Virus record (IMG/VR): IMGVR_UViG_3300033148_001030
Coordinates: 1 to 34,550 of that record
DNA: 34,550 nt
Strand: one strand, 5' to 3'
Source of the DNA: a virus
Below the pieces are notes generated by a model that ran no database searches, was not told where the DNA came from, and saw nothing but the letters and a program-made list of their open reading frames with translations. The translations under genes and the position numbers were made by a program. Below are positions 18,267-34,550 of this stretch, piece after piece; within the stretch, counting starts at the first letter, position 1; the number at the start of each line of letters is the position of its first letter.

Positions 18267-18281
18267 TTGTTTCCTCCTTGC

Positions 18282-19409: not shown

Positions 19410-19422
19410 AATCACATCCTCC

Positions 19423-21423
19423 TCACCTGGCCGGTGCCTTGATTTCTTCCACAGAGGCGGCCAAGTCAATGCGTTTAATCTCTAGGTTGCCTTCAACTTC
19501 AAAATAAAGCGTTCTCGCTCTATATCCGCTTGCCAATCTAAATGGGCGATCGTTGTAAATTTCTTTTGTCATCTTTAGCGCACCATCAGCATAAAGCTTA
19601 AAAGTCATCTCAAAATCACCCGAATATGCCGGAGTAGAAGCAACATCTTCTAATTGATCGCCGTTTATGGAGATATTCTCGCCAATAGTGTTTTCCGCTA
19701 TCGCGCCCCCTATTTGATTTGCTGAAATAAGAGCAATGTTGCGCGCGCGAGCTTGTGCCTCTTGGTCAAGCAGGTCTTGATAGTCTGAACGATCTCCTAG
19801 CTCACAGATAACGCGAGCAACCAAGGGTGTTGCCTTGGCAGGAAGTAAAAACTCTTTACTTCGCCATACAAGATGATCCGGATGGGGTTGCGTCTGATCG
19901 CCTTCCCATTGGTACACATAATTGGTGCCACTCACGGTTTTAACGAAATATAAAATATCTTCTTCGGTATCCACGAAAGCAGCATCAGTATAAAGATCAA
20001 GCGTTGTTAGCTCCCCAAAGTATTCACCGCTAGCCTCGTCCTGGAAAAGGCCAACCACAATGGCACCTTCATTATCCCCATAGGAATAAAAGCCAAAGTA
20101 ACGCTCATCCTGGATGTAGCCGTGCATGGTAGCGGGCTCATAATCCGACCATGTTTCCGCATCAAGGGAAGATCGAGTAAGAAGAATGCTCCTGGAGCCA
20201 TCAATCAACGCCAAGCCGTCATTTGTGGCATAAACCACGCCACCTGAAAATTTCGCAACAGAACGCTTTGAGACGCACGGCCTTGATTCAGAAAGCGGCG
20301 TAGGCGTCATGGCTGCGGGATCAGCGCCGGTGACAATGACCGGCTTGTCCTCGGTCAACACCACCAATACGCCCGCCACTGTCTCAAGAGCAACGATAGG
20401 ATCTGGAACACTGATAATATAGTCTGTAGGATAGGCCCACGGTTTATAAGGCTCCGAAAAGTATATGTCTTTTCCGCTGAATCCGGCCAAAATACCATTG
20501 CCTATATATACAAGTCCTTGCAATTCATCTGGTGGTGGATCGTAAGTTTCTGTCAAAAGCACATCCTCAGTATTGAGATCATCGTCTGGCGTGGTGTCAG
20601 TGTAAGTCGTATCGCTAATGTCAATTGCGTCAAGGTAAACGTATTGGACCGAAACGCTTCCGGTAAGCACGCGGTATATTCTTTTTTCGAGGAGGTTGTT
20701 TTTGTAACACCTCCACTTTACAGTTCCATCATCGGTGTCTTCGTCAATGGTTGTGCCCCAGGTCGGCTCCGAGGTTCCACTGGTGCCGGCCTGGACACAT
20801 TTGTATACATAGGTGCCCCCCTCGCTACCAACTGGAAACACAAAGTTACCAACAGTGTATGCTTTTCCTGCCTGCCATTCCATTGTCATACCACTTAAAT
20901 TCACTGTCTGGCCTTGTTTTGCACTTACAGTGTTGGAAGCATCGGAGGGCAAGCCTTCCTCATACCAGTCTGTTACAACGGTCCAAACGTAGTTGACCGA
21001 GCGAGCATCACCAGTGCCGCCGCTACCAAGAGAGGCCGATGGTGCGGCTGCTGGTGTAGGCACGGCAAGAGGATAATAGTTCACGGGCTTGGCCCCACCC
21101 CCAGTAGTCGCCTGCGTCCGATTGCTTTTCTTGGGTATCCCAGCGCCGGTGAAATAGAATTTACCCGCTGTATCCCCGCTCACTGGCGCAAGAACAACAT
21201 CAACGTCGGCTTCCCATTCAAACCAATGTGAACCTTCGTAGAGATATATGGTTCTTATAGTCCCGCTATTGACAAGGGTTGCTTCTTCTGTCTCATTGTA
21301 CCAGGGACGAAGATGCCCGTTGGACAGCTTACAGTTTTTGGCTATCTGTGCCTCATGGGAGTTTAAAAGCTGAGAAGATATTTTCGGTCTTATGCCACCG
21401 AATCTTTCAAGGCTTACAAACAT
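19423..21423 (-). CDS. Tail hub/nozzle-type protein with inserted carbohydrate-binding-like module
   Basis: ATG 21423 follows GGAGG by seven bases and overlaps the previous stop as TGATG; a TTG one codon upstream is less likely. The 666-aa product is beta-rich. Motifs FGGIRPKI at the start, a YVWTVVTDWYEEGLPS piece near 145-160 (typical of a fibronectin-like strand pair), then repeated beta elements such as FSGKDIYFSEP and GGVVYATNDGLALID fit the propeller-like body of podovirus tail nozzle or stabilisation proteins. Residues about 183-240 hold an insert with VGNFVFPVGSEGGTYVYKC, then AGTSGTSEPTWGTT and DDGTVKWRC; I know this pattern as a small carbohydrate-binding-like module scattered in phage tail proteins. 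The role would be closing the tail and perhaps gripping the cell surface. Confidence 0.8.
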   Translation of the reverse strand: MFVSLERFGGIRPKISSQLLNSHEAQIAKNCKLSNGHLRPWYNETEEATLVNSGTIRTIYLYEGSHWFEWEADVDVVLAPVSGDTAGKFYFTGAGIPKKSNRTQATTGGGAKPVNYYPLAVPTPAAAPSASLGSGGTGDARSVNYVWTVVTDWYEEGLPSDASNTVSAKQGQTVNLSGMTMEWQAGKAYTVGNFVFPVGSEGGTYVYKCVQAGTSGTSEPTWGTTIDEDTDDGTVKWRCYKNNLLEKRIYRVLTGSVSVQYVYLDAIDISDTTYTDTTPDDDLNTEDVLLTETYDPPPDELQGLVYIGNGILAGFSGKDIYFSEPYKPWAYPTDYIISVPDPIVALETVAGVLVVLTEDKPVIVTGADPAAMTPTPLSESRPCVSKRSVAKFSGGVVYATNDGLALIDGSRSILLTRSSLDAETWSDYEPATMHGYIQDERYFGFYSYGDNEGAIVVGLFQDEASGEYFGELTTLDLYTDAAFVDTEEDILYFVKTVSGTNYVYQWEGDQTQPHPDHLVWRSKEFLLPAKATPLVARVICELGDRSDYQDLLDQEAQARARNIALISANQIGGAIAENTIGENISINGDQLEDVASTPAYSGDFEMTFKLYADGALKMTKEIYNDRPFRLASGYRARTLYFEVEGNLEIKRIDLAASVEEIKAPAR

Positions 21424-22187
21424 CAACTGACCTCCACGTACTGAATCTCTCCGTCCTCACCCACAAGGCAGAAGTAAGGCGCACCCCAGGCAACAGCTTT
21501 AAAGGTTTTGTTGTAGGATTCAGCCGCATCTCTATGTGTCCATGAATCCCCAGGGGAGCTAGAGCTTTGAATTTCGCCGTTTTCGCCGCACACCACAAAG
21601 AATGTCCGACCATAGGCAGCACCGTAAAACGTGCCGCTAAAGCTATCGGCGGGAGTAGCTGCGTGCCACGTAACGCCATCATCGGTACTGTATTGAATTG
21701 TGCCGTTAGCCCCACATACAACCCATATCCCGTCGCCATAGACCGCCCCATAAAGGTTGGCAGTCACACCATTTGCTAGGCTTCGTTGTGTCCAATTTTG
21801 GCCGCCGTCAGTGCTGGTATAGACAGCGCCGTTATCTCCCACGATGATCCACGTGTCACCACCAAAGGCAATAAAGTTGCCGTCAGGTGTGTCCGTTATC
21901 TCTGAATGACTTGTTAGGTTTTTGTTTGTTTTAAAAAGTTTGGATTGCGGTGTTGCTGGAAGGCCCAAAACAATACCATTTCCATTGTCGCCATCAGGAT
22001 CAGCCGCCATTGCTGCGAGGTTCAAAAGATCGGCGTCCCATCCGCCCCATCCTGTATCATCCCATATAATACCATCTTCACTTTTAAAAAAATTGCTGTA
22101 GTCGTGGTCCCCACCACTAGACATACCGCCAAGGTAGGCCAGATAGTAAGCCCCTGTGTGGACCAAACAACGAGTATATACTGCCAT
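21423..22187 (-). CDS. Beta-propeller tail protein with Asp-box repeats
   Basis: This gene encodes 254 aa. Repeats of the form G(D/A/E)xGxIxxSTDxGxxW are visible: GDNGAVYTSTDGGQNW, GANGTIQYSTDDGVTW, GENGEIQSSSSPGDSW, and a final half repeat GEDGEIQYVE. These are BNR/Asp-box style blades of a beta-propeller, as in sialidase-like and YCF48-like folds. I see no catalytic set that would make it a sialidase. The ribosome site is AAGGGGA about ten bases upstream. Its first base pair ends share a TGATG overlap with the nozzle gene, and it follows a longer propeller protein by 17 bases, so both probably form part of the adsorption apparatus. Receptor binding is inferred. Confidence 0.75.
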   Translation of the reverse strand: MAVYTRCLVHTGAYYLAYLGGMSSGGDHDYSNFFKSEDGIIWDDTGWGGWDADLLNLAAMAADPDGDNGNGIVLGLPATPQSKLFKTNKNLTSHSEITDTPDGNFIAFGGDTWIIVGDNGAVYTSTDGGQNWTQRSLANGVTANLYGAVYGDGIWVVCGANGTIQYSTDDGVTWHAATPADSFSGTFYGAAYGRTFFVVCGENGEIQSSSSPGDSWTHRDAAESYNKTFKAVAWGAPYFCLVGEDGEIQYVEVS

Positions 22188-22204
22188 TTAGCGCATTCCC
22201 CTTA

Positions 22205-23884
22205 TTAAAAGTCTGACTTATCAGCCACAATTACACCTGCAAAAGCCGTTGGGTCAAAGCCAACAGATCGTTCAATGGGTATAGCTTCCTCATTGTAAAC
22301 GCCTGGCTCGTGGTCAAACATTGGTGTGCCTACTGCGATGAAATTCTCTGGCCCTGCAATAATGCCCACTGAAGCAAAATAATCATTCGTGTATTCGGCA
22401 AACGTCGGCGTTATTTGCGCCCATGTATCTCCATCGCTTGAGGTGACGACTGCATGGCCCTTGTCCTTATACCCAATTTCAGCGGTGTAGTAATATCCTT
22501 GGCCTACGGCTATAAATTGTGAACCTGTGTAAAGTATCCCGTGAAGGCCAATATAGGTGTATCCACTCTGGACGCTGTAGCTTTTAGTTGTCCATGTGTC
22601 CGCATCAGAGGAGACGTTGAGCTTATTTCCATAACCATAGCCGTCCGTAATCATGTAATACTTCGAGTTTTCATAGATTATTTCCTTGGCATAGCCATGG
22701 TTATCGGGAAAGGTGGTGCCGTGCCAGGTACTTAGATCGGTGGACCAAATAATACTGTTATCGGTGTCTGAAGCGCCACCAGCCGCAACCCATTTCCCTC
22801 CACCGTAAACGATCGAATAAAAAGGGGTATTGCCGGTAGAAATGCCATGCGAAATTTCAGTCCAGGTGTTAAGGTCGGTGCTTTTTAAAAGCTTTGCCTT
22901 GTATGTGCTGGCATCGCCGCCACACGCCACATAATTTGTTCCATCAAAACCTATGTCATAGAGAGGATAATTTCCCCCTGTCCTTTTCTGTGTCCAGTTA
23001 TGGCCATCGCTTGAGACCTGTATCTGTTCGCTGTCCCCTACAGCAATAAATTGATTATTTAGGAAACGAATCTTATGAATCCGCCCACACCAATGATTAT
23101 CCCAATAAAAAACCGACCACGTTTCACCATTATCTGTCGAATAATAGCCTTTGCAGTTATTAGCCGCTTCTGCCGCAACCCACGTATTATTTCCGTATGC
23201 AATCGTTAACGCATAATCGTGATAATTCCACTCGCTATCCCGGTCAAAAAGCGGCTCAATGTCACGCCAGGTGACACCGCCATCGGTAGAAATAAGATCG
23301 CCATAACATCCAAGGGCTATAATCTTACTTCCATTTCTTCCAATAGCCTTCAGCGGTCCCCTTATAGGCCATGGTTCCAGGGCTTTGGGCGCTTGCATAA
23401 CTGCGCCAAAACAATATTGCTCACCTGCCAAGACATCCCAATTTGTTCCCCCACCCCTGTTGATATGCCAGCGTTTATGACAATCGTCAACACCGGATTC
23501 ATAGACCTTTTCACCGTCATACTCCGCAGCAAGCACTCCATCGGGCGGGGTGGTGGTTGTTCTGAAGACGCCCTTTTGAATGAAGTTCTCGAAATCAGCC
23601 GCAACACCGCGTTGACAGACGATAGCTCCTGCATTCCAGCTTCTTGCCGTTGTTCCGCCTTGTTGCCGCTCCACAGTTAACACGTCGCCCGTAATACCTG
23701 TTACCTTTACGATCTCAACGTTATGATTGGGATCGGTAATGGTGAGATACATGATCTTGCCGGAAGACCAGTTAGGCAAGAACACCGCAGCTCCCCCAGG
23801 GGCAAGCGCAATTTCGGTGTCGCTCGCAGTTATGGCCTCGCGCAAAGTCGCGTATGGCAAATTATTGTAAACGCGCTCTGTCAT
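22205..23884 (-). CDS. Tail fibre/receptor-binding protein with beta-propeller
   Basis: This gene encodes 559 aa. The N-terminal 150 residues are a fibre-attachment-like domain with VTGITGDVLTVERQQGG and QKGVFRT...PPDGVLAAEYDGEKVYES, shared with the gene just upstream. From about residue 175 to 530 there are repeats such as YYSTDNGETWSVF, QVSSDGHNWTQK, LLKSTDLNTWTEI, IIWSTDLSTWHG, NVSSDADTWTTK and VTSSDGDTWAQI, that is, at least six Asp-box motifs (S-x-D-x-x-x-W) of a beta-propeller. The C-terminus has an AIPIERSVGFDPTAF patch. It starts 1 base after the previous stop. The arrangement (virion-anchoring head, propeller body) suggests surface recognition. No enzymatic residues could be assigned. 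Confidence 0.8.
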   Translation of the reverse strand: MTERVYNNLPYATLREAITASDTEIALAPGGAAVFLPNWSSGKIMYLTITDPNHNVEIVKVTGITGDVLTVERQQGGTTARSWNAGAIVCQRGVAADFENFIQKGVFRTTTTPPDGVLAAEYDGEKVYESGVDDCHKRWHINRGGGTNWDVLAGEQYCFGAVMQAPKALEPWPIRGPLKAIGRNGSKIIALGCYGDLISTDGGVTWRDIEPLFDRDSEWNYHDYALTIAYGNNTWVAAEAANNCKGYYSTDNGETWSVFYWDNHWCGRIHKIRFLNNQFIAVGDSEQIQVSSDGHNWTQKRTGGNYPLYDIGFDGTNYVACGGDASTYKAKLLKSTDLNTWTEISHGISTGNTPFYSIVYGGGKWVAAGGASDTDNSIIWSTDLSTWHGTTFPDNHGYAKEIIYENSKYYMITDGYGYGNKLNVSSDADTWTTKSYSVQSGYTYIGLHGILYTGSQFIAVGQGYYYTAEIGYKDKGHAVVTSSDGDTWAQITPTFAEYTNDYFASVGIIAGPENFIAVGTPMFDHEPGVYNEEAIPIERSVGFDPTAFAGVIVADKSDF

Positions 23885-23885
23885 T

Positions 23886-24320
23886 CTACGTCATTTCCTT
23901 CCAGGTAGTTCCCTCGCAGTGTTTCCACCATTTCTGTGTAACTGAGTTGTAAACTTCTTCACCCTGGTATTCCGCGGCCAATGATCCATCGGGGTCACTG
24001 GTTACAGTGCGAAAAACGCCTTTTTGCAGAAAGCTCCCTAATATAGTGGCGTTGAGAACGAGCTTGACGCTTGCACCGGCAGAAAAGGAGTTGCTGCCAC
24101 CCCTTGTCACTGTCAGCGTGTCGCCACTTCGGGCCGTACAAAGCATCCATTCGGACTTTGAGGTGTCGGATACCAGGATATAGAAACCCTTGCCCGATCC
24201 GCCGCTTACGGATGGAAACTTAGCTCCATCTCCACTGTCCACGGTTATGTTTGTATCAGCCCCACCAATATCGGCAGCAAGAGTGCTTTCAGCGTTATTT
24301 GCAAAGAGATATTCAGTCAT
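23886..24320 (-). CDS. Short paralogue of the fibre N-terminal domain
   Basis: This gene encodes 144 aa and overlaps the upstream gene by 4 bases (ATGA). Its whole length lines up with the first 150 residues of the next protein: TARSGDTLTVTRGG against VTGITGDVLTVERQQGG, and FLQKGVFRTVTSDPDG followed by LAAEYQGEEVYNS against FIQKGVFRTTTTPPDG followed by LAAEYDGEKVYES. It ends after a WWKHCEGTTWKEMT segment, without the propeller. It may be an independent fibre adaptor or the remains of a duplicated fibre. The overlap with its neighbours points to coupled translation. The family is familiar from phage tail fibres; the exact role is not known. Confidence 0.75.
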   Translation of the reverse strand: MTEYLFANNAESTLAADIGGADTNITVDSGDGAKFPSVSGGSGKGFYILVSDTSKSEWMLCTARSGDTLTVTRGGSNSFSAGASVKLVLNATILGSFLQKGVFRTVTSDPDGSLAAEYQGEEVYNSVTQKWWKHCEGTTWKEMT

Positions 24321-25003
24321 AGCCAGCTATCTCCTCTGAATTGAACCGTAAGCTCTTGGTGCGTTAACCCTTTCATCGCCACCAGGTTTGCAGCCGCTAT
24401 CATCTCATCAAAGACTATCTCAAGCTCGTTGGCCTTGTTGGGGTTAGACCATGGCATCCCAGGCGTGCCATACAAATATGCCCGCGCCCCGGTAGCGATT
24501 TGCCGGCGGTATTGATTGTAAAGAATATCGGGCAATACGGTTGCCCCTTCTATCGGTCGGAGGCAAACCTTCACTAAGAGCCCCTCGTCACTGTCATCTT
24601 CTGGTATTGGATACAAATAAAGCGTAGTCGGGTCCGAAGCGTTGACGTAGTAATTCGAGGGAGTGGAAGAGCTGTCCAAGTGCCATGCGTCATATTGCAC
24701 CCTGTCTTCGTGATCTGCGGACAAGGGGTCAAGACGGGTGAAGCTGCTGTCTTCTTCCCCGTCCTGCTTATACCATGCAGCGGCCACGCCGATTATCCTT
24801 GCATAAGCGGCCATAGCCGTAGAAAGAGACAGGCTGTAGCCGGCCTGATCCCCCACCACATTGATGCGGTCGAGGGTATGCTTCCATATGTGCGAGCCTT
24901 CACAGAACCTTATGGCTGCATCCAAAACAGCCTGCTCAATAGCAGGCAACGGAACCATCGGCATTTGGATAAAAGGCCGCCATGATGATAATGCCACAGT
25001 CAT
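24317..25003 (-). CDS. Head-tail adaptor-like protein
   Basis: This gene encodes 228 aa, with a modest ribosome site (GGAG nine bases before ATG). The start, SSWRPFIQMPMVPLPAIEQ followed by VLDAAIRFCEGSHIWKHTL, is an amphipathic helical block common to adaptor/tail-tubular-type proteins next to portal and fibre genes in podoviruses. The middle is beta-like (STPSNYYVNASDPTTLYLYPIP), the C-terminal part helical (ELEIVFDEMIAAANLVAM). It follows a second adaptor-like gene and a small linking gene, and precedes the fibre genes. Assignment is by position and general pattern; which ring of the neck it forms cannot be told from sequence alone. Confidence 0.65.
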   Translation of the reverse strand: MTVALSSWRPFIQMPMVPLPAIEQAVLDAAIRFCEGSHIWKHTLDRINVVGDQAGYSLSLSTAMAAYARIIGVAAAWYKQDGEEDSSFTRLDPLSADHEDRVQYDAWHLDSSSTPSNYYVNASDPTTLYLYPIPEDDSDEGLLVKVCLRPIEGATVLPDILYNQYRRQIATGARAYLYGTPGMPWSNPNKANELEIVFDEMIAAANLVAMKGLTHQELTVQFRGDSWL

Positions 25004-25009
25004 GATCTA

Positions 25010-25213
25010 TTACTCCGTAGGCATACCAGCGGCTTTCCACTGCTCGAAAGACAATGGCACGTTTTTGCCGCCAGAGGTTTCCACCATTTGTCTGTACATT
25101 GCGTATCTGCGTTTTACGGCTTTGTTTGCTGCACCAAAAACAGAGTAAGGATTCTCTGCCTTTTCTTTTCGCCGGTTTTCTTCTTGTTCTGCCTGCATTC
25201 TTGTATTAGCCAT
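25010..25213 (-). CDS. Small basic/acidic helical phage protein
   Basis: I take ATG 25213 (GGGAGGA, seven bases upstream), giving 67 aa; the frame extends to 25255, but that would overlap more of the previous gene and has no better site. The start is Gln/Glu/Arg/Lys-rich (MANTRMQAEQEENRRKEKAE), followed by NPYSVFGAANKAVKRRYAMY and a C-terminal FEQWKAAGMPTE. It overlaps the previous gene by 8 bases. It probably works with the two adaptor-like proteins on either side. No family is recognised. Confidence 0.65.
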   Translation of the reverse strand: MANTRMQAEQEENRRKEKAENPYSVFGAANKAVKRRYAMYRQMVETSGGKNVPLSFEQWKAAGMPTE

Positions 25214-25871
25214 TTTGTGATCCTCCCTGCTGTTCTGCTTCTGCTGCAATTCCAAGCGCTTGCAAATATGCTTTAAGATGCTTCAAGGCCCGTTGTTCAT
25301 TGCCTGGATAATCAGCGTCTTTGCTGAAAGCCCTGAAAAGGATATAGTCTATCAACGCCCCAACATACTCATTGGAGATGCCAACAGTAGCCGTCTCCCA
25401 ATTGCCATTAGAATCCCAAACAATTGCATCTGGAATTTCGGAGCGGGCCACTTCAACATAAGTGGTGCCGTCTGCGGGCGGATAGACATAGAAGACCGTT
25501 GGTATCCTTGGGTCTGTGGCGAAGTTAGCAATCTCAGTGTCTTGGCTTGTCTCAGGCCACGAGGTAAGGTAGGCGCTTAAAAGCTCAAGGCTAGTGCGGG
25601 TGATAGCGGGGCCAGGGGTTTGGCCGTCTGTACCCATGTTACGTATAACGTCCATGACGGCAACCCCTTTTACGCCAAGCCGCTGCAATGATCCCGGGGC
25701 CAGCTTTAGTGAGCTAACCACGATATTGGCAGCCGGAACAAATGACACGATCTGCCTACAACCGATATTCGCCCAGTTGACAAGCTCCTGCTCGTCCCAG
25801 GCATCATTGTCGGCGTCCTGCAATTGCCCGGCCACCAAGTCGATGATGTATTTCAGGGTTACGTTTGCCAT
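25206..25871 (-). CDS. Phage adaptor-like protein (DUF6682-like)
   Basis: This gene encodes 221 aa. The opening, YIIDLVAGQLQDADNDAWDE followed by ELVNWANIGCRQIVSFVP, and the later PRIPTVFYVYPPADGTTYVE then ALIDYILFRAFSKDADYPGN, match my memory of the DUF6682 family, small proteins near portal and capsid genes in podovirus-type genomes and thought to act at the head-tail junction. The end is Gln/Gly-rich (EAEQQGGSQNG), likely flexible. The ribosome site (GAGGAG) is nine bases upstream. The gene lies six bases after a coiled-coil gene and overlaps the next by 8 bases. Confidence 0.7.
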   Translation of the reverse strand: MANVTLKYIIDLVAGQLQDADNDAWDEQELVNWANIGCRQIVSFVPAANIVVSSLKLAPGSLQRLGVKGVAVMDVIRNMGTDGQTPGPAITRTSLELLSAYLTSWPETSQDTEIANFATDPRIPTVFYVYPPADGTTYVEVARSEIPDAIVWDSNGNWETATVGISNEYVGALIDYILFRAFSKDADYPGNEQRALKHLKAYLQALGIAAEAEQQGGSQNG

Positions 25872-25877
25872 GAGGTA

Positions 25878-26426
25878 TTACTCCTCGTTTTCAAAAATCC
25901 TCTGTATCCTCGCTTCCTCTGCTTCGGCTTTTAGCTCTGCCATGGTCTTACGGCGGTTAATCTCAATGCCGTATTCTCTTAGCATGTATTCCTCAACCTG
26001 ATTTTTATTTGTCATCGCGCGAATTTCTTGAATTTGAGGATCTTGATCTATTCGTTGCTTGCGTTGCGCGCTCAATATGTCGTCCTCGGTCTCTAGCTTT
26101 ACCTGTGGCGTAAGCTCTTCTTCCTCTGCAAAGTTACCCTCCATAAGCCGCTGCTCTGTCTTGTCGAGTTCTTCCATCTGTTTTTCAAGCTCTGCCAGCT
26201 TTGCGGCAACTTCTTTGGCTTCATTAGCCATATCATTACCCAATGTTGCGTTTTCCTTTAGCGCAGCAATACGGGCCTTTTTCTCTTCTATGGCCTTTTT
26301 CATCGCGTCTATGCGCCGCTTGGCGGTGTCGATCTCTAGCGGAACCATGTCCTTTCTGGCTGCAAGCTCAGGAGTGTAAACGTAAATATGTCCGCTTCCC
26401 AACTGTCTCAAGTATCTCGGTGTCAT
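25878..26426 (-). CDS. Coiled-coil virion-region protein
   Basis: This gene encodes 182 aa with a strong ribosome site (AAAGGAGG, eight bases upstream). Residues about 35-110 are a regular Ala/Lys/Glu heptad-like coiled coil (KKAIEEKKARIAALKE, AKLAELEKQMEELDKTEQ). The first 30 residues (TPRYLRQLGSGHIYVYTPEL) resemble the short N-terminal motif by which small phage proteins handle the virion, and the C-terminal half is charged (RRKTMAELKAEAEEARIQ). It sits between a beta-rich capsid-associated gene and the adaptor genes. The function is unknown; an assembly or head-completion role is inferred from place alone. Confidence 0.65.
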   Translation of the reverse strand: MTPRYLRQLGSGHIYVYTPELAARKDMVPLEIDTAKRRIDAMKKAIEEKKARIAALKENATLGNDMANEAKEVAAKLAELEKQMEELDKTEQRLMEGNFAEEEELTPQVKLETEDDILSAQRKQRIDQDPQIQEIRAMTNKNQVEEYMLREYGIEINRRKTMAELKAEAEEARIQRIFENEE

Positions 26427-26454
26427 TGTATTGTCCTCCTTTCAAGATTGTTAA

Positions 26455-26487
26455 GTGGCCCCTGCCGCATTCAAAGGCAGAGGCCAC
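26455..26487 (-). other. Strong stem-loop after the beta-rich capsid-associated gene
   Basis: On the minus strand a 12-base-pair stem (one G-U pair) closes a nine-base loop. The arms are 26455-26466 and 26476-26487. It lies between the stop at 26501 and the next start at 26426. The bases that follow (TTAACAATCTT) are only weakly T-rich, so it may be an incomplete terminator, or a barrier that protects the 3' end of upstream messages. Confidence 0.7.
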
Positions 26488-26500
26488 GGGTTTGCCGGGG

Positions 26501-27004
26501 CTATGCTCCCAGGTCTGCCGCGAAGTAGCACTCCAGCCAGAAGTCGGCGATGAAGTTGTTGGTATTCGCGTTGTTAAAGAGGATGGTTACTGCACCGTCA
26601 GCACTGAAGAAGTAGCCAAGGGCATTGTCGGTGCCGTAGCCGAGGTCATCTGTGGTGTAGTAAACGGTTCCCGCAGTACCGTTCATGTCGGAGCCATCCA
26701 GGAAGCCGTCTGTGTCTGCACCGGTAATGCCCACGTCAATAGTGCAAACAGCGCCTTCGGCTTGTACCAGCCGGCAACACACTCTCTTGACCAGGGTGCC
26801 CTTGGGCAACCTGAAGATGTCGAGGGTGTCGTTGGCTGCAAAGCCAGTACTGGGAAGACTGGTCTTTTCAGTGGGATCACTGGTAAGAGCAAGCCCTCCA
26901 TTGGAAATCAGGTCGGGTATGTCCAACCTGCGTCTTGGTATAACCATGCCGGGGGAATCGAAGGGAATCGCATACCCATCGCCCCAAAACATATAATTAG
27001 CCAT
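26501..27004 (-). CDS. Beta-rich capsid-associated (decoration-like) protein
   Basis: This gene encodes 167 aa with a very good ribosome site (GAGAGGAGG). The N-terminus (MANYMFWGDGYAIPFDSPG, then RRRLDIPDLI) precedes a beta-sandwich-like body: FRLPKGTLVKRVCCRLVQAEG, then VDVGITGADTDGFLDGSD. This IPKGT...AEG...VDVGDG-type layout is one I know from small structural proteins coded just after the capsid gene in many phages, where they decorate or cement the shell. The gene follows the major capsid gene across a 65-base spacer with a tetraloop hairpin. The decoration role is inferred. Confidence 0.65.
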   Translation of the reverse strand: MANYMFWGDGYAIPFDSPGMVIPRRRLDIPDLISNGGLALTSDPTEKTSLPSTGFAANDTLDIFRLPKGTLVKRVCCRLVQAEGAVCTIDVGITGADTDGFLDGSDMNGTAGTVYYTTDDLGYGTDNALGYFFSADGAVTILFNNANTNNFIADFWLECYFAADLGA

Positions 27005-27035
27005 TTGTTAATCCTCCTCTCTGCTAGTTTTGTTT

Positions 27036-27059
27036 GGTCGAGGGCCGAAGCCCCCGACC
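27036..27059 (-). other. C(UUCG)G stem-loop between capsid gene and next gene
   Basis: The minus-strand RNA folds into a 10-base-pair stem (one G-U pair) with a UUCG loop closed by C-G, an unusually stable tetraloop. The arms are 27036-27045 and 27050-27059. It starts ten bases past the capsid stop. No T-run follows (AAACAAAACTAG), so it does not look like a simple terminator; it could shield the capsid message from exonuclease or reduce read-through. Confidence 0.8.
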
Positions 27060-27069
27060 GCTTCCAGGG

Positions 27070-27987
27070 TTATCCCTTGGTGATGTAGCAATCAGTCATT
27101 GCCTGGCCTTTCAGCACCTTGTAGCCGTACACATTGAGGCCACGTACCAGCGTTCCGAAGGTCGCCTCAGAGCGAAGCGATTCCATCTTGGTCATCTGCG
27201 CTGCAAAGCTCAGTGCGTGCCTTTGACCGAACATGGCGTGCCAGCATGTGTAACCGCTGTCAGACACGGAGGTGAGCAGGTTCGAGGAGTAAAGAGTGAA
27301 GCGGTCGATCATCCCGATCCTGCCATTGCGGAGTATGGAGGTGCCGTCACCGGCAAGGGAGGCGTCCTTGAGGTCGGACTTCTTGATCTTGCCGGCAAAC
27401 CAGGCGGGTATTACGCCCCAACGGTCGGTCTCAGGAGCATCGTTTTCATCCAGCACCGTACCGTTATCCACGATGATGTCGAGGATGTTGGCTGTGGTGA
27501 CTACCAGCGGAGAGCCAGTAGTACCAAGATTGATGTCGCCGCTTTTCTTACCGGCGCTTGTTCCCTTATTGTTGGAATCAGCGTCGGCGTAGATGTCGGC
27601 GAGGATGCCGGTATCTATGGTGATCTTCATCTGTTGGCCGGCATCGTCCGCCCAGGCGTCCATCAACTTGAGGTCGGTCTGGTGCTTGTCGATGTCGTCG
27701 CAGATGAAGTTGAAATACTTGGCGTGATCTATGGGCAACTCGGTCTTGGGGGACTCCGGCCTCTGGATCACGAGGGACTGGTTCTTGTTGTAGTCCCGGA
27801 TCACTATGTCGGGCACGGTCCTGATCCATACCTTGTCGCCCTTATCCTTGATCTCGCCTTCGTAGTCGGTGTTAGAAATGGCAGCAAGTACGGTGGCCGA
27901 GTAAAACTTAACCAGTAGCTTGCCGCTCCATATCTCAGGTATAAAGTTACCGCTGTATTGCGGGGTTCCACTAGCTGCGTTAATCAT
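27070..27987 (-). CDS. Major capsid protein (HK97-fold type)
   Basis: This gene encodes 305 aa with a strong ribosome site (AAGGAGGG). The opening (FIPEIWSGKLLVKFYSATVL, then AAISNTDYEGEI) and the following KVWIRTVPDIVIRDYNKNQ match a widespread podovirus-type major capsid family. The middle (NFICDDIDKHQTDLKLMDAW, then ITIDTGILADIYADA) holds the spine helix and domain core. The end (LYSSNLL, AMFGQRHALSFAAQM, then GLNVYGYKVLKGQA) is typical of the C-terminal strands. Length is normal for the family. It follows the scaffold gene, and its 5' leader can form alternative hairpins covering the ribosome site, so its output may be tuned. Confidence 0.93.
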   Translation of the reverse strand: MINAASGTPQYSGNFIPEIWSGKLLVKFYSATVLAAISNTDYEGEIKDKGDKVWIRTVPDIVIRDYNKNQSLVIQRPESPKTELPIDHAKYFNFICDDIDKHQTDLKLMDAWADDAGQQMKITIDTGILADIYADADSNNKGTSAGKKSGDINLGTTGSPLVVTTANILDIIVDNGTVLDENDAPETDRWGVIPAWFAGKIKKSDLKDASLAGDGTSILRNGRIGMIDRFTLYSSNLLTSVSDSGYTCWHAMFGQRHALSFAAQMTKMESLRSEATFGTLVRGLNVYGYKVLKGQAMTDCYITKG

Positions 27988-27994
27988 TGTTTAA

Positions 27995-28045
27995 CCCTCC
28001 TTGCTATCCGACACCTACAGGGGCAGCGATAGCCGCACAGCAAGG
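27995..28045 (-). promoter_or_regulatory. Capsid gene leader with alternative stem-loops over the ribosome site
   Basis: Between scaffold stop and capsid start, two pairings compete: the 6-base pair of 28003-28008 with 28028-28033, and the 7-base pair of 27999-28005 with 28039-28045. The second arm covers the left half of the Shine-Dalgarno sequence (minus-strand AAGGAGGG, 27995-28002) that serves the capsid start. The arrangement could let translation of scaffold, or a bound protein, switch capsid translation. This is base-pairing by eye, not an energy calculation. Confidence 0.4.
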
Positions 28046-28058
28046 AAGGTCTGTGGCC

Positions 28059-29174
28059 TTACCCTTGCTGCAAATTGAAGGCTTTCGCCAAGCTCCTCTG
28101 AAAGGCGTCTGAAATTTTCTGAAACTCATCTTCAGTTATCTTTCCTTTGGTGTAGTCCTCAGCCGCCTTTGCCATTTGTTCCCTGGTGACTGTCACTTCA
28201 CCTGGAGCAGGAGGCGGAGGCGCAGCACCGGCCGCATCGGGCATGACCTGAGACTCTAGGCCAGCACCGGCAGAAGCCTGTGGCTGCTGTTGCTGAGGTG
28301 TTTGTTGCTGTTGTGGAGCTGCCGAAAGACCAGCTTGTTGCTTGTAGGCGTTAAAGAAGTAGGCCACTCCATCAGGATTCATGTTGTAGAAGTGGTTATC
28401 TAGCAACTGCTTGCGGGTTTGGCCCGAAGCCATATCAACTTCCCCAAGCCAACGCAGGAAGCCGGGATCGTTATTGAGAGATTCCCAATCAGGGACTTGT
28501 TCTGCTAACCTGTTCCAGAACCTTTCTTCGGCAGTCTGCTTCTGGCCCTGGTACAAGCTGGCAACTGCATCACGAAGACGCTGGTTCTCTGCAATCAAGG
28601 CATTGAAGTTACGCACGAGCCCAACCATCTCTTCGCCATAAGGCTCGTAATCCTCTTCGTTGAGTGGTTGGAGACCTTGCTCTGTTGACGCTCCGGTTTG
28701 TGAAGGCTGCTGCTCAGTTGTTGCCGCGCCTTGCTGTTGAACTTCGCCAAGGCTTTGCCCTGTTGCGCCATTGGCGATAAGCTGGTTGAGCGTCGCAATG
28801 GTGGAGGCGGCTTCCATTAGCTTCTGCTGCAAGTCAGCGTTTTGGGCCTCCAATGCGGAAAGCCTTTCGCGCAACTCGCTAACATCCGCCTTCACTTCTG
28901 CGTCATACTTACCCTTGAGAACCTTGTACTTCTGCTCCCAATCCACTGGCTCCCCTTGCTCAGGAGGCTTTTCCCCTTGCACCGGCTGTTGTTGTGACGG
29001 TGGAGGAGTCGGTTCAGCCTGAGCGGGAGGCGCTGGCTGTTGCTGCGCTTGGCCCTTTTGGTCCTTGGCAGCGGGTTGATCCTTCTTTTGCTTCTTCTTG
29101 CCTTCCGCAAGCTCCTTCTGGAGTTTCTCTGCTTCCTTTGCCTGTTTCTCTACTGCTGCTGGCACACTCGACAT
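28059..29174 (-). CDS. Scaffolding protein
   Basis: This gene encodes 371 aa with a strong ribosome site (AAGGAGGG). The composition is typical of phage scaffolds: Lys/Glu-rich start (KQAKEAEKLQKELAEGKKKQ), a Gln/Pro/Ala-rich linker, a coiled coil about 85-135 (LRERLSALEAQNADLQQKL), a helical centre (ERFWNRLAEQVPDWESL), a Gln/Pro-rich linker, and a C-terminal helical part (DEFQKISDAFQRSLAKAF) of the kind that contacts the coat protein. It sits immediately before the capsid gene in the standard order. No protease domain is visible. Confidence 0.9.
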   Translation of the reverse strand: MSSVPAAVEKQAKEAEKLQKELAEGKKKQKKDQPAAKDQKGQAQQQPAPPAQAEPTPPPSQQQPVQGEKPPEQGEPVDWEQKYKVLKGKYDAEVKADVSELRERLSALEAQNADLQQKLMEAASTIATLNQLIANGATGQSLGEVQQQGAATTEQQPSQTGASTEQGLQPLNEEDYEPYGEEMVGLVRNFNALIAENQRLRDAVASLYQGQKQTAEERFWNRLAEQVPDWESLNNDPGFLRWLGEVDMASGQTRKQLLDNHFYNMNPDGVAYFFNAYKQQAGLSAAPQQQQTPQQQQPQASAGAGLESQVMPDAAGAAPPPPAPGEVTVTREQMAKAAEDYTKGKITEDEFQKISDAFQRSLAKAFNLQQG

Positions 29175-29190
29175 TGTTTTCCCTCCTTGT

Positions 29191-29215
29191 GCGAGCCCCT
29201 TTCGGGGGTGTTCGC
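29191..29215 (-). other. GNRA-type hairpin in the scaffold leader
   Basis: The minus strand reads a CCCC-GAAA-GGGG hairpin (arms 29204-29207 and 29196-29199) inside an outer GCGA/TCGC pairing (29212-29215 with 29191-29194). It ends just before the scaffold ribosome site. It is GC-rich and could be a stabiliser or processing site. Confidence 0.55.
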
Positions 29216-29272
29216 GGTCTGTGGGCTGATCGGAGCTGCCGCGATATGTTCAAGTACCTGAATTTCCTTTTG

Positions 29273-29299
29273 AAAAAAAATATCGAGGCGTCTTCCGAT
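29273..29299 (-). terminator. Weak candidate terminator after the small DUF6582-like gene
   Basis: After the stop at 29316 the minus strand has a small stem (ATCG with CGAT, 29282-29299) followed closely by eight T (29273-29280). The stem is short, so termination would be partial. If real, a new promoter would be needed for the scaffold; I see no convincing -35/-10 pair in 29175-29272. Confidence 0.3.
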
Positions 29300-29315
29300 C
29301 CATACCCTGTTAACG

Positions 29316-29543
29316 TTAGCTAATCTTGATATTCGGGAACTTGCGATGGATCTTCCTTTTCAGTCTCGCAAGCTCACTCGGTGACAAATACCGTGCGCCA
29401 TAGCGCAAGGCAGCCCTGGCGTGTTCCTCATCGTTGATGGGATACGCGCCTCGGCCTGCCGGATTCTTTTTGGTCTTCTTCTCTGGAAACGCAAAGCTCT
29501 TTTTGGTCATCTTCACGCGCTGTTTGTACGATAGCCTTGCCAT
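29316..29543 (-). CDS. Small DUF6582-like phage protein
   Basis: I take ATG 29543 (GGAAGGAG, eight bases from AGGAG), giving 75 aa; a GTG at 29564 is the longer alternative and has no better site. The core KSFAFPEKKT...YPINDEEHARAALRYG, then LSPSELARLKRKIHRKFPN, matches the small phage family I know as DUF6582 (motifs: FAxP, YPIxDxxHAxxAL, and a basic end with RxxIxxxFP). Its function is unknown; in other phages it lies near capsid or scaffold genes, as here. Confidence 0.7.
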   Translation of the reverse strand: MARLSYKQRVKMTKKSFAFPEKKTKKNPAGRGAYPINDEEHARAALRYGARYLSPSELARLKRKIHRKFPNIKIS

Positions 29544-29626
29544 TTTCCTCACTCCTTCCGACACATTGATCGTGTCCAGATTGCAGCGGGCTACTGGAGG
29601 TAAAGGAGGCCGAAACCCTCACGTCT

Positions 29627-30172
29627 TCACACCACCGCAACCGGACACGCAACTATGATCGAGTCGCGGTAGTTGGTGAAGACCACCAAACGATCCCACT
29701 GCTCTTTAAATGGCCTCCTTAAGTCCACCACCTTTTCGCCCTGGGACACTGGTTTAAGGCGCAGTGTACGGGCTGCAAACGGCTCAGAGATGAAGTACGC
29801 AATCTCATTGCGGTAATAGACATAAATTCCGGACCGAATAGCGTCTTCAGCTTTTTCATAAATACGCCGCTCCACCTTTACGCCCTTCATCTTCATTTGC
29901 AGGTCAAGGTCTGTAGCAGGGTCAACCACCACCTTATCGCTCATTCGCCTAAAAACAGGGATAAGGGCCTTCTTGACCGTGCCATCCAGATCAACCCCAA
30001 GGCGCGCAAGGGCTTTGCTCAGGATCTTGCCGCGGAACATCCCCGCATCCCGCGGGTTATCGAAAAAGTACGCCTGGCAATCCTTGTATACGAGCCCAAG
30101 GTTGTCCTTGTCCCGCTTGCCGATCTCTTCCAACGTCATGTCCTTGGTGGCATCAACTATTTCCTCAGCCAT
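29627..30172 (-). CDS. Head-region protein of unknown function
   Basis: This gene encodes 181 aa and starts 5 bases after the previous stop, with AGGAG nine bases upstream. The sequence starts acidic and helical, then becomes basic, with an alternating beta-like tail (IYVYYRNEIAYFISEPF, TLRLKPVSQGEKVVDLRRPF, then VVFTNYRDSIIVACPVAVV). There is no membrane segment except the short hydrophobic end. I do not recognise a family. Position between the small decoration-like gene and the scaffold suggests head assembly. Confidence 0.6.
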   Translation of the reverse strand: MAEEIVDATKDMTLEEIGKRDKDNLGLVYKDCQAYFFDNPRDAGMFRGKILSKALARLGVDLDGTVKKALIPVFRRMSDKVVVDPATDLDLQMKMKGVKVERRIYEKAEDAIRSGIYVYYRNEIAYFISEPFAARTLRLKPVSQGEKVVDLRRPFKEQWDRLVVFTNYRDSIIVACPVAVV

Positions 30173-30177
30173 AACAA

Positions 30178-30615
30178 TTAGCTCCTGGGCCTCACATAGA
30201 GCATGGTCACAACGGCCTTTCCTGCGGTGGCTGCGGTTCCGGTCTGTGTGTATTTCACGAAGACTTCAGTATCCGCGCTTACGCTCTTGCCCTTACCACT
30301 CACTATTGTGACACCTACGCTCGTCTCATCCACATCACCTGCTGCGACATAAGCGTCATCATCACCGCTAGTGCCCACCACGAGTACATTGGTACTACCG
30401 GCGTTAAAGGCGGTCTGCACATCGACGATAGTCGCCACAAGCTCCGCACCTGCCGGCAATATGCCCATGCTCACGGTGTACGGATCAGCCACATCGTAGT
30501 TGATGGTGGCCTTCAGGGCTTCCAGCACCATGGTCTTGGACAGGTTGTCGCCACGATCCAAAATGATCTTCTTTGCCCGTAACTCATTGACATTTAGCTT
30601 TTCATACCTACTCAT
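30178..30615 (-). CDS. Beta-rich head protein (decoration-like)
   Basis: This gene encodes 145 aa with a strong ribosome site (GAGGAGGGG). After a short helical start (LNVNELRAKKIILDRGDNLS) the chain is Val/Thr/Ala/Gly/Asp-rich with repeats of beta strands (GILPAGAELVATIVDVQTAF, NVLVVGTSGDDDAYVAAGD, TEVFVKYTQTGTAATAGKA). This is typical of small phage shell-decoration or head-fibre proteins. It shows the same general composition as the beta-rich protein next to the tail fibre, but I cannot align them convincingly. No named family. Confidence 0.6.
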   Translation of the reverse strand: MSRYEKLNVNELRAKKIILDRGDNLSKTMVLEALKATINYDVADPYTVSMGILPAGAELVATIVDVQTAFNAGSTNVLVVGTSGDDDAYVAAGDVDETSVGVTIVSGKGKSVSADTEVFVKYTQTGTAATAGKAVVTMLYVRPRS

Positions 30616-30629
30616 TTCTTTCCCCTCCT

Positions 30630-30887
30630 CTACCCTTGTTGTTCCCTCTCAAAATTGAGGATTTTTTCAGCCATCTGCCGCGACGCGGCGAATATGTTTA
30701 GCAGGCTTACAAGCGCCCTGCGTTGCCCAATAATGGTTTCATCGTAGTTGTCCAGGGATTCAAGTGATAGCTGTCTATCCACGCCTTCCAGGTATTCGAC
30801 AAACCTTTGAAAATCCTTGTCGTTCCGTAGCCGCGCGATAGCTTTCCACGCTTCATTGTCCGGTTCTGGCAAGTAATTCCTATCCAT
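30630..30887 (-). CDS. Small helical protein after the portal
   Basis: This gene encodes 85 aa and overlaps the portal end by 8 bases, so its ribosome site (GGAAGGATGATGGGAA) lies in portal coding sequence. The chain is helical (AWKAIARLRNDKDFQRFVEYL, then QRRALVSLLNIFAASRQMAEK). Small proteins like this between portal and head genes are common in podoviruses. Function unknown. Confidence 0.65.
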   Translation of the reverse strand: MDRNYLPEPDNEAWKAIARLRNDKDFQRFVEYLEGVDRQLSLESLDNYDETIIGQRRALVSLLNIFAASRQMAEKILNFEREQQG

Positions 30888-32991
30888 TTCCCATCATCCT
30901 TCCCGGCTCTTTGCCCATTGCGCCCCCATCAGGGGCCATAGCCGCTGGCCGAAACGGTATGGCCCCACTCTGAGGGGACACGGGAGGCATGGGCTGTGGC
31001 GAAGCAGGAGGCATGCTGGCGGCTAACTGCTTCCTGCGCAATAATTCTTCCCGCGAAGGCACCACCTTCTTGGTGGGCATCTTGAGACTCTTCACTGTTT
31101 CACGTAGCACTTCCGCCCTGCCTTCCTCGCCCATAATGGCAAGGTCAACAGGATTGTTGGTCTGCTGCAAGAACTCAGTCCGGCGTAGCTGTAGCTGCTC
31201 TTGGACGATCAGGTATTCGCTCGCTCGCGCGATAACCTCAATGTCGCCCCATTTCTCCACGTCCTCGTCATAGAGCATGATCTGCGTCCAGTGTTCCTTG
31301 ATCGTGGGTTGAATGATGTTACGGTCTATGTATCCAACCACGTTCTTCAGGGTCTTGGTGGCAGAATTAAGGAGCATGGAAAGCCCTGAAGCGGTCTTGC
31401 CCGCTCCACCTACCCGCTCGTTGCCGTACATATAGGCGGGGATACCCGATTGCTCGCTGGCCTGCTTGAAGAAATACTCATACACAGCCAAAAGCGCATC
31501 AGCGAGCAAGTTAGGTTGATAGAAGTTGATGGCCGGTTTCCCGTGCGGCATACGGCTTTCCTTGGTCTGCCATATTTTCCACGGCCAAATACGGGTGACA
31601 TCCTGGCCTGCATACAGCCGATCCATATTGGCTTCGACCTGCGGCCCGGAAGCGATCCCCATGTTGTTCACCAGGGCTCGGGCGGCAGCATTGCACACTC
31701 TCTGAGTGTCGCGCATAAGCTGAGGCACACCTTCGCCCCAAATAGAGTCATTGGTGGGGGAAAACGATGCGCTGTAGTATAGCCTCTGGCCAAGGGGATG
31801 AGGGTTAAGTCGCGCCATAACCACCCATCTACCGAAAAGCACCACTACAGCCTCGTAGTCCATGAGAGGGTCTTTGATTTGCTGCGGACTCATGCCCCAA
31901 TCCAAGAGCAACCGCCCACGGATAGGGCCATTGAAGATCCAACCAGTAAGCGGAGGATCAGGATCGTTGAATTCCTGTGGCCTGCCCTCTGCTTGCGCCC
32001 GCTGGTAGTCACCCACTAACATGCTATTGTCGCCACGAAAATAGCCGTACTGGTAGTCGTAAAGCACCCCTCGAATAGCAAGCTCGCTCCACCCAGGACT
32101 GCCGATCATCTCCACCAGTTGACGCCGGCGCAACCTGATCCGCTCGCACAAGTAACCATCCTGAACAGATCGCGCCCCAGGAGAGGGAAACATATCGAAA
32201 GGCGATACACGCTCGTAACAACGGAATAGCTTTTCACTCACAACGGGACGCCACGCCCCATCCGGTCCTTCTTGCCACACCAGGGTTTTCTTTCGCTTGA
32301 TGATGGGGCCTTTCAGGAAGGCAGCCGGAAAGGTCACAAAGTCGATGATGAAATCCTCTAGCGCCTGGTAATACCCGCCGGATTGCAACTCATCTTCGAT
32401 CCGTGCGCTAAGCAATTCAGTGGCTTTCTCTGCCTGCTCCAAACGCTCTTTCCTCACATTCTCCCTGATCTCCTGAAGCCTTTGCGCCACCTGCTCAGGG
32501 GTCACGGCCTCAATGCCCTGCGCCCGCATCACAGTGGCAGCCTCAAGGGTAACGGTCTTGGTGATCTCTTCCTCGATATTGTCTGGAAGCTCCGGCACCT
32601 CACTTGGAGCAAGCGACCACGGCCTCTCTCCTGCTGGAAGTATGATGTCCTTGATCCATGCTTCAGCGGCGCGGCACTTCATGCCCGTAAGCTTCATGAA
32701 GACCGTAGAGCCGTTGGTCTTCTGGATTTCAGCCAGCACATCATCGTCATACTTTCCCTTGCGCTGGTTGAGGCACTTGACCAAGGTATCATGCACACCG
32801 CTAGACTGTTTGGCGTTCACTGCTGCATCCACGGCCTTCTGCACATAGGCAGCCAAAGCGGTCAGGGGTTGGCGGTTCTGCTGCTCTTCAGCCTTTTTTC
32901 GATCCGCCTCCAACCGCTCTTTTGTGACGATTTGCTGCGGGGATGCGGTCTGCAATATCCTGTCTTCCAGCGGTAATGCGCTCTGTGTCAT
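30880..32991 (-). CDS. Portal protein
   Basis: ATG 32991 is chosen: it makes an ATGA overlap with the terminase stop and has GAGG seven bases upstream; ATG 32997 is the longer alternative. The 703-aa protein has helical ends and a beta/alpha core typical of podovirus portals: SPFDMFPSPGARSVQDGYL in the crown region, GEGVPQLMRDTQRVCNAAAR on the long portal helix, SGPQVEANMDRLY, and ASEQSGIPAYMYGNERVGGA, which in portals lines the channel. The C-terminus is Pro/Ala/Met-rich (SMPPASPQPMPPVSPQSG), as in many portal tails. It forms the dodecameric vertex through which DNA enters and leaves. High confidence from both sequence and position. Confidence 0.92.
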   Translation of the reverse strand: MTQSALPLEDRILQTASPQQIVTKERLEADRKKAEEQQNRQPLTALAAYVQKAVDAAVNAKQSSGVHDTLVKCLNQRKGKYDDDVLAEIQKTNGSTVFMKLTGMKCRAAEAWIKDIILPAGERPWSLAPSEVPELPDNIEEEITKTVTLEAATVMRAQGIEAVTPEQVAQRLQEIRENVRKERLEQAEKATELLSARIEDELQSGGYYQALEDFIIDFVTFPAAFLKGPIIKRKKTLVWQEGPDGAWRPVVSEKLFRCYERVSPFDMFPSPGARSVQDGYLCERIRLRRRQLVEMIGSPGWSELAIRGVLYDYQYGYFRGDNSMLVGDYQRAQAEGRPQEFNDPDPPLTGWIFNGPIRGRLLLDWGMSPQQIKDPLMDYEAVVVLFGRWVVMARLNPHPLGQRLYYSASFSPTNDSIWGEGVPQLMRDTQRVCNAAARALVNNMGIASGPQVEANMDRLYAGQDVTRIWPWKIWQTKESRMPHGKPAINFYQPNLLADALLAVYEYFFKQASEQSGIPAYMYGNERVGGAGKTASGLSMLLNSATKTLKNVVGYIDRNIIQPTIKEHWTQIMLYDEDVEKWGDIEVIARASEYLIVQEQLQLRRTEFLQQTNNPVDLAIMGEEGRAEVLRETVKSLKMPTKKVVPSREELLRRKQLAASMPPASPQPMPPVSPQSGAIPFRPAAMAPDGGAMGKEPGRMMGNG

Positions 32992-34550
32992 GTCCATGCC
33001 TCTGCTGATGGCGGTTCAACCTGAACCGGAAATTCCCTGTGTCCGGAAAATGCTCCATACGACGTGTCACGACTCCATGAATGAAGTGTCGCCATGGTGC
33101 GAAATGCGTCGGCCCCATGAGACGCCCAATCATGAAGTGGGCGGTTCTTGTAGCTCTCCGTGCGCTCGTCCCACTCCTTCCGGTACGCCTCCAATGATGG
33201 AAGCCCTACCTTCTGGCCGTTGTAGAGCTTGGTGCAGTTTTTCTCGTCGAACCAGCATACATTGAGAATCTTGCGCACCGCCTCAATGCCGCTCTGCACC
33301 CTGAGCCTGGGGGCCACTTCAAACCGGATACCCAGCTCCAGGGCGGCATCAAGCCGTGTCTTGGCATTGTTGCCCCACTCGCGCACGCTGATGTCGTGCG
33401 GAGCCCCGTGGATGCCGTAGATGTACCCATGCTCTTGCGCGTAGCGGTCCAGGACCTCGCGCTTGTAGAACTCCAAACCCTCACCTGAGTTTTCGTAATA
33501 GTTGATGACGTGAATCTCACGGCCCACTGTCTGTGTGAACCAAATGGCTGTGGTATCATCCAGGCCAATATCCCACCAGGTATCGACCAGGATGCCAGGC
33601 TGATGAGGCACAGAAGTGATCCGGCCAAGCTTGCGGAGCCGCGCAAAAGCAGAAGCGTAATACGTCCCTCGCACCGCCGCCTCGAATGCTTCCTCTGGCG
33701 TGGAAGGATGCTCACGCTTCATGTCTTCGCCCTGCTCGTTCCACTTCTGCACATACCAGTTGATCTGCTCACGGGTGAGATGGATGCCGTATTTAGCGCG
33801 TAGCTCATCGAAGTAGCGCTTCTGGTAGTCCAAGACCACCACGTCATCATCGAGGCGGTTGAGGGGATTCATGAACCAGGGAAAGAAATGAAACCGGTAA
33901 TCCATCTTCGTAAGTTTCCGGCGGGCAATGGAGAGCTTTCGCGCCCGGTCGCAAATCTCATAAAAAGCCCCGGTCTTGCCTTCTGCCGTAGACTCAATGA
34001 TTACCCAATTGCCAGGGTGAACCGTGTTGAGTGATCCAGTGACGATCTCGCGGGCCTTTTCAGGATAGCGGGCTGCGATCTTCCCAAGCTCAGAGATGTG
34101 CAGGAGTTGATAAGTGCCAGATCGACCGGAAGTAGTCACGCGAATAGAAGACCCGTTCGAGAACCGCAACGCTTTGGTGGAGCTTCGCTCCGCCTTCACC
34201 AAGGCTTTGAGCCAGGCAGGAAGGTTGTCGTAAGCGAACTTGACCTTGTTCTGGAAGAACTCCTCTGCGTCCTCGCGGTTGTGGGCAATGATTGCGGCGT
34301 GGATATTGGGAGTGAAAAGGCAGATGTCCAGGAAAAGCAGACAGGCAAGAGTGGTGATTCCGTGTTGGCGGGACTTCAGCACAACGTTGAGATACCAAAG
34401 AGCCAAGTATAAGAGCTTTTGCGTGCGGTTCATCCGAAACGGGATTTTCTTTCCATCAGCGTCCACGATATGATAAAGCGTGTTCAGCCGCTCATACTGA
34501 TTCGTGAGCCGCTTCCGGATCATCTGCCGTTCTAACGGCGATAGCTCAAT
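32988..34550 (-). CDS. Terminase large subunit, 5' end beyond window
   Basis: The frame is open to the right edge. ATG 34523 (511 aa) lacks a ribosome site, and the residues before it (IELSPLERQ) look like normal terminase N-terminus, so the true start probably lies outside the window. Numbered from that ATG: deviant Walker A KSRQHGITT at 50-58, Walker B with LLHISE at 140-145, a motif III-like IESTAEG at 176-182, and nuclease motif WWDIGLDDTTAI at about 316-327, with DWASHGADAF near the end as the last nuclease element. This is the ATPase plus nuclease motor that packages DNA through the portal. It overlaps the portal start. Confidence 0.93.
   Translation of the reverse strand: MELSPLERQMIRKRLTNQYERLNTLYHIVDADGKKIPFRMNRTQKLLYLALWYLNVVLKSRQHGITTLACLLFLDICLFTPNIHAAIIAHNREDAEEFFQNKVKFAYDNLPAWLKALVKAERSSTKALRFSNGSSIRVTTSGRSGTYQLLHISELGKIAARYPEKAREIVTGSLNTVHPGNWVIIESTAEGKTGAFYEICDRARKLSIARRKLTKMDYRFHFFPWFMNPLNRLDDDVVVLDYQKRYFDELRAKYGIHLTREQINWYVQKWNEQGEDMKREHPSTPEEAFEAAVRGTYYASAFARLRKLGRITSVPHQPGILVDTWWDIGLDDTTAIWFTQTVGREIHVINYYENSGEGLEFYKREVLDRYAQEHGYIYGIHGAPHDISVREWGNNAKTRLDAALELGIRFEVAPRLRVQSGIEAVRKILNVCWFDEKNCTKLYNGQKVGLPSLEAYRKEWDERTESYKNRPLHDWASHGADAFRTMATLHSWSRDTSYGAFSGHREFPVQVEPPSAEAWT

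Follow-up and report, generated by a model that had tools for sequence, protein, structure and literature searches.

In translational attenuation of the erm type, an RNA forms one hairpin or another but not both; one of the folds exposes a Shine-Dalgarno (SD) sequence, and the position of a ribosome chooses between them. In phage P22, the scaffold protein represses its own synthesis post-transcriptionally. How scaffold and capsid protein are proportioned in tailed phages is an old question, for which a conserved RNA element with two competing folds would offer a concrete, mutable handle. A well-established mechanism is translational coupling through unfolding of the RNA, as described in a review for Escherichia coli rpmI-rplT and MS2 coat-lysis (PMC12548453). 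At the level of transcript ends, phage T7 has one terminator for the phage polymerase, T-phi, directly after capsid gene 10 (PMC5592923).

Here, we compare these systems with the head genes of a viral sequence from a family of uncultured phages, IMGVR_UViG_3300033148_001030, positions 1 to 34,550 (34,550 nucleotides; the window, meaning the whole stretch analysed). Its scaffold-capsid joint shares with erm-type attenuation an SD that is free in just one of two mutually exclusive hairpins, and a choice that we propose is made through ribosome position. It differs in that the upstream frame is a 371-aa scaffold gene rather than a short leader peptide, in that the predicted sign is opposite, and in that no inducer-dependent stall is known for the element. 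Like the unfolding-coupled pairs, it has co-directional neighbour genes, a downstream SD held in an inhibitory structure, and a spacing of similar order (+52 nt in rpmI-rplT, 71 nt in the window; PMC12548453). Unlike in those pairs, the anti-SD arm is contested by the last codons of the upstream gene, and in the window ribosomes at the scaffold end are predicted by static folds to close the SD, not to open it. Placed immediately behind the major capsid gene, a hairpin would step down later genes, as T-phi would by its position (PMC5592923), and terminator-like U-tracts occur in part of the window's relatives; the window's own two 3' hairpins, however, lack such a tract, and the second of them follows the decoration gene. 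SD burial and unfolding coupling are already known. A competing partner formed by the last codons of the upstream gene at a phage scaffold-capsid joint was not found in the open-licence literature searched.

The explanation that we prefer, at a probability of about 0.48, is a cis-acting translational switch at the scaffold-capsid junction combined with 3'-end hairpins after the capsid and decoration genes. One spacer segment (segment 2) would pair either with the last codons of scaffold (segment 1; hairpin 1:2), leaving the SD of capsid exposed, or with that SD itself (segment 3; stem 2:3), burying it, and ribosome occupancy of the scaffold end would decide which of the two forms. As the fold would then depend on ribosomes at the scaffold end, capsid initiation would be tied to scaffold translation, thereby setting the protein ratio. 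The strong hairpins after capsid, and then after the decoration gene, would define mRNA 3' ends and step expression down, through protection or processing in the window and through intrinsic termination in some relatives. Control by ribosomes, the sign of that control and all effects on expression are what we infer from the structures described below.

Table 1. Genes and RNA elements of the head-gene region in the window (SD, Shine-Dalgarno).
Feature	Position	Strand	Remarks
Terminase large subunit	32988-34523	minus	
Portal	30880-32997	minus	small genes between portal and scaffold
Pre-scaffold hairpin, GAAA loop	29191-29215	minus	from sequence and fold; weakest of the four
Scaffold gene, 371 aa	28059-29174	minus	last codons carry segment 1
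Hairpin 1:2	28009-28109	minus	scaffold end (28061-28109, core 28063-28070) with spacer (28009-28047); leaves capsid SD free
Stem 2:3, 15 bp	27993-28051	minus	anti-SD segment 2 (28037-28051) with capsid-SD segment 3 (27993-28007)
Major capsid gene, 305 aa	27070-27987	minus	PHROG 267 major head protein, E 1.7e-53
Post-capsid hairpin, 10 bp, C(UUCG)G loop	27036-27059	minus	no U-tract
Probable capsid decoration protein, 167 aa	26501-27004	minus	AlphaFold2 model and Foldseek
Post-decoration hairpin, 12 bp	26455-26487	minus	no U-tract
Further gene, next after decoration gene	25878-26426	minus	
Adaptor	25206-25871	minus	

The head-gene cluster lies on the minus strand throughout (Table 1). The capsid protein is 34% identical to that of phage D6E, whose annotated order of portal, scaffold and capsid is the same as in the window. 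The scaffold product matches PHROG 13678 (function unknown), and a homologue is present in 90 of 100 non-redundant loci. The product of the gene after capsid is probably a capsid decoration protein: a PDB sequence search returned no match for it, and its AlphaFold2 model (mean pLDDT 85) has, as its two best Foldseek matches, chains from structures of phage capsids (E 1.8e-4 and 2.0e-4). The names scaffold and decoration, given to these genes in an earlier note on the sequence, therefore hold. Elsewhere in the window, a single open frame of 4529 aa (3321-16910, minus strand) takes up 39% of its length.

That note had described strong hairpins before scaffold, before capsid, after capsid and after the next gene, with little or no spacer and nothing of this strength at other joints. 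Folded as minus-strand RNA, each against 1000 dinucleotide shuffles, all four spacers do fold more stably than expected by chance: before scaffold (29175-29315; -41.8 kcal/mol, z -2.58, 14/1000 shuffles as low), before capsid (27988-28058; -35.0 kcal/mol, z -4.12, 3/1000), after capsid (27005-27069; -22.6 kcal/mol, z -2.15, 28/1000) and after the decoration gene (26427-26500; -27.1 kcal/mol, z -2.47, 14/1000). The reported C(UUCG)G loop after capsid is present. The other joints are overlapping genes or spacers of 1-17 nt with folds of 0 to -4.4 kcal/mol, and the sole other long spacer (29565-29626) folds no better than its shuffles (z +0.36). Strength thus marks the capsid-cluster spacers among gene joints but is not unique to them: among 60-nt minus-strand windows their folds rank 2nd, 3rd and 6th, and the strongest, in the 3' part of portal, spans 30921-30980 (minus, -37.1 kcal/mol). 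Because equally strong folds occur within genes, conservation was needed as the deciding test. A simple terminator scan of the window gave no excess of terminator-like sites and listed none in the four spacers; Rfam gave no match at gathering score in the window, and sigma-70 promoters showed no excess over shuffles within 17000-34550.

To collect relatives, IMG/VR was scanned six times and GTDB genomes once with the capsid protein. The first four scans, together with the window, gave 233 sequences examined, of which 220 were usable and 100 non-redundant (90% over the spacer and capsid start); a later, more distant sample added 27 further non-redundant loci. Clades were taken from a quick maximum-likelihood capsid tree, in which several relevant forks have support of only 81-95. 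There, the window falls in a group of ten rows that is sister to a clade of 18 rows, both within a clade of 39 rows. MAFFT shifted the divergent helix arms and alignment-based covariation counts were dropped, so that conservation of pairing is judged by shuffle tests and by examples read by eye, among loci that share descent.

In the window, the spacer segment GACCUUCCUUGCUGU pairs with the SD-bearing AUAGCAAGGAGGGUU over 15 base pairs, at -23.3 kcal/mol, and none of 1000 spacer shuffles yields a duplex as low. The same duplex lies within the lowest 5% of 1000 spacer shuffles in 29 of the 76 loci that could be tested (within 1% in 16), the remaining 24 of the 100 loci having spacers that are too short. 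Compared at equal upstream lengths in the first locus set, burial at 5% is found for 19/47 capsid starts versus 12/288 other gene starts (Fisher p 7e-11, relatedness ignored). SD burial is a clade-limited trait: it is found in 15/18 loci of the sister clade, in 18/39 of the larger clade and in 11/37 elsewhere, only the window passes within its own group of ten, and replication failed in the later distant sample, where none of the 15 testable loci passed. A buried SD is also surprising for the most abundant phage protein, and we count this against a switch.

The competing hairpin reaches into coding sequence. Its duplex in the window measures -47.0 kcal/mol, a value reached by 0/1000 spacer shuffles and 0/1000 synonymous redraws, where the upstream gene contributed its final 51 nt to pairing with the spacer and controls were made by shuffling the spacer or redrawing synonymous codons. 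Across relatives, the scaffold end pairs with the spacer at 5% in 34/75 loci by shuffling and 30/75 by synonymous redraw, and 5/15 of the later distant loci keep it. This pairing is concentrated at the scaffold-capsid joint. When joints are compared at 5%, it is found there in 30/64 loci (synonymous 25/64), versus 5/77 (2/77) after capsid, 3/62 (4/62) after decoration, 5/24 (1/24) before scaffold and 1/26 (2/26) at two other joints. Synonymous codon choice at the scaffold end thus favours pairing 1:2. Read by eye, L160-L163 carry AGGAGG (Arg-Arg) in segment 1, CCUCCU in segment 2 and AGGAGG as the SD, while L164 has AGAAGA (still Arg-Arg) facing UCUUCU, two compensating changes at synonymous sites. 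A conserved element with two folds in competition across the scaffold stop codon would show regulatory codon choice at phage gene ends.

Segment 2 is common to both pairings in most loci, and pairings 1:2 and 2:3 are mutually exclusive since they use the same spacer segment. Both pass at 5% in 17/75 loci, although the two tests are not fully independent, as a pyrimidine-rich segment 2 tends to pair with any purine-rich stretch. With its scaffold end free, the window folds best as 1:2 (-53.7 kcal/mol) with a probability of 0.62 that the SD is open; this falls to 0.00 when the scaffold end is masked and to 0.01 under a ribosome-sized mask at the scaffold stop, all of these being static folds of the RNA by itself. 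Masking the scaffold end lowers this probability by more than 0.2 in 15 loci of the 39-row clade and raises it in one; under the stop mask, 11 loci (the window among them) lose more than 0.2 and three gain more than 0.2. The open state is favoured in the window, by 2.2 kcal/mol in one frame and by about 4 in another. Among the 17 loci with both pairings, seven have their two states within 2.5 kcal/mol, and in ten the closed state is the more stable by over 4 kcal/mol, which led us to reject equilibrium bistability as a general rule.

Conservation extends to the downstream hairpins. Among spacers of at least 35 nt scored against shuffles, those after capsid fold within the lowest 5% in 62/76 loci (within 1% in 41/76) and those after decoration in 51/64 (32/64). 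The same comparison at 5% gives 23/56 before capsid and 12/48 before scaffold; the next joint upstream gives 3/15, and joints further downstream give 7/19 and 2/7. Support in relatives for the pre-scaffold hairpin is weak. In the later distant sample, 13/27 post-capsid spacers pass at 5%. In L001, a near relative with 92% DNA identity, the 3' arm of the post-capsid hairpin has three changes, all of which preserve pairing, and the post-decoration hairpin loses its two outermost pairs while inner changes keep pairing (both read by eye). UUCG-type loops occur in 15/78 post-capsid spacers. The post-capsid spacer of a cultured relative, Rhizobium phage RHph_TM3_14A, also folds strongly; between scaffold and capsid this phage has just 27 nt. 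The window's two hairpins (-19.3 and -23.8 kcal/mol) are GC-rich, as in terminators, but are followed by 0 and 3 T, respectively, in the next eight bases. When hairpins that reach -10 kcal/mol or below are taken, and 5 or more T among the next 8 bases are counted as a U-tract, such tracts stand after 18/39 post-capsid hairpins outside the 39-row clade, versus 7.9% of all spacer positions, and after 0/25 inside it. The two hairpins are position-conserved 3'-end hairpins whose likely role is to define mRNA 3' ends, likely by termination in some relatives and by protection or processing in the window's clade. Transcription attenuation before capsid was considered and rejected: a hairpin (-10 kcal/mol or lower) with U-tract occurs in 0/33 clade spacers and 1/29 outside. 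The four capsid-cluster hairpins are thus more than one kind of element. The earlier idea that such structures balance scaffold, capsid and decoration protein fits these findings, but not as a single device, as the pre-capsid element would act on translation and the later two on 3' ends; the absence of conservation in relatives, one part of what was to have refuted it, did not occur in the shuffle tests across loci.

How the junction would work can be read in several ways. In a ribosome-sensing version of the switch, which we hold to be rather unlikely, scaffold translation would shut the capsid start, and once translation slackens, the last scaffold codons would capture the anti-SD arm and turn capsid on. 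If so, translation may slacken for example through free scaffold repressing its own synthesis, translation itself would report assembly demand, and selection to maintain the switch would act on synonymous codons at the scaffold C-terminus. The main rival is classical coupling, in which stem 2:3 blocks capsid until a ribosome finishing scaffold opens it by unfolding or scanning, so that no capsid is made where scaffold is not, and hairpin 1:2 is a by-product or helper. We consider this doubtful, though a serious contender: across 29 loci, the anti-SD arm begins a median of 10 nt past the scaffold stop, where the edge of a terminating ribosome would lie, and the stop mask raises the probability of an open SD by more than 0.2 in L092, L176 and L096. 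Unfolding is moreover an established model even at a spacing of +52 nt, as in rpmI-rplT (PMC12548453). Against it, the same mask lowers that probability by more than 0.2 in 11 of the 39 clade loci, the window included, which makes coupling through a static ribosome at the scaffold stop a weak proposition, and classical coupling alone does not require codon choice that favours 1:2. For the window, the folds make inverse coupling the better guess, with ribosomes on the scaffold end predicted to close the capsid SD.

Two further readings dispense with ribosomes. A phage or host protein, such as the scaffold or capsid protein, could bind one of the junction hairpins as an autoregulatory operator and control translation of capsid or scaffold. 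The structure does cover both the scaffold end and the capsid SD, and scaffold self-repression in P22 is a precedent, but helix and loop sequences vary widely among relatives, which argues against a conserved protein-binding sequence; we hold this reading to be improbable. We give slightly less credence still to the view that these hairpins are ordinary, arising by chance in GC-rich spacers or in spacers simply kept free of coding sequence, with no regulatory role. The equally strong fold inside portal, the missing U-tract after the window's post-capsid hairpin and the failed replication of SD burial are in its favour; codon choice at synonymous sites, the concentration at certain joints and the U-tracts outside the 39-row clade all speak against it. 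The cis-acting switch with 3'-end hairpins remains our preferred explanation.

Several short words were seen in the spacers of relatives. In the sister clade, a run of 5-8 C lies no more than about 50 nt past the capsid stop (L162, L163, L160, L164, L092, L096, L094 and L105) and is not always paired in the fold. A GTAGAAT-like word with a G-run, resembling a -10 box, stands just before the post-decoration hairpin in L128, L123, L136, L213, L204, L135, L141 and L139; such words are listed for 9/77 post-decoration spacers, one of which (L158) looks unrelated. The window has one match to a further, promoter-like word, TTGACATANTGTATAA, in a different region and at chance expectation. In L012, this word brackets the capsid cluster, standing ahead of scaffold and behind the decoration gene at 4845-4860 and 7552-7567 (two matches with up to three mismatches; as many in 6/200 shuffles), and similar words are also present in spacers of L160 and L163.
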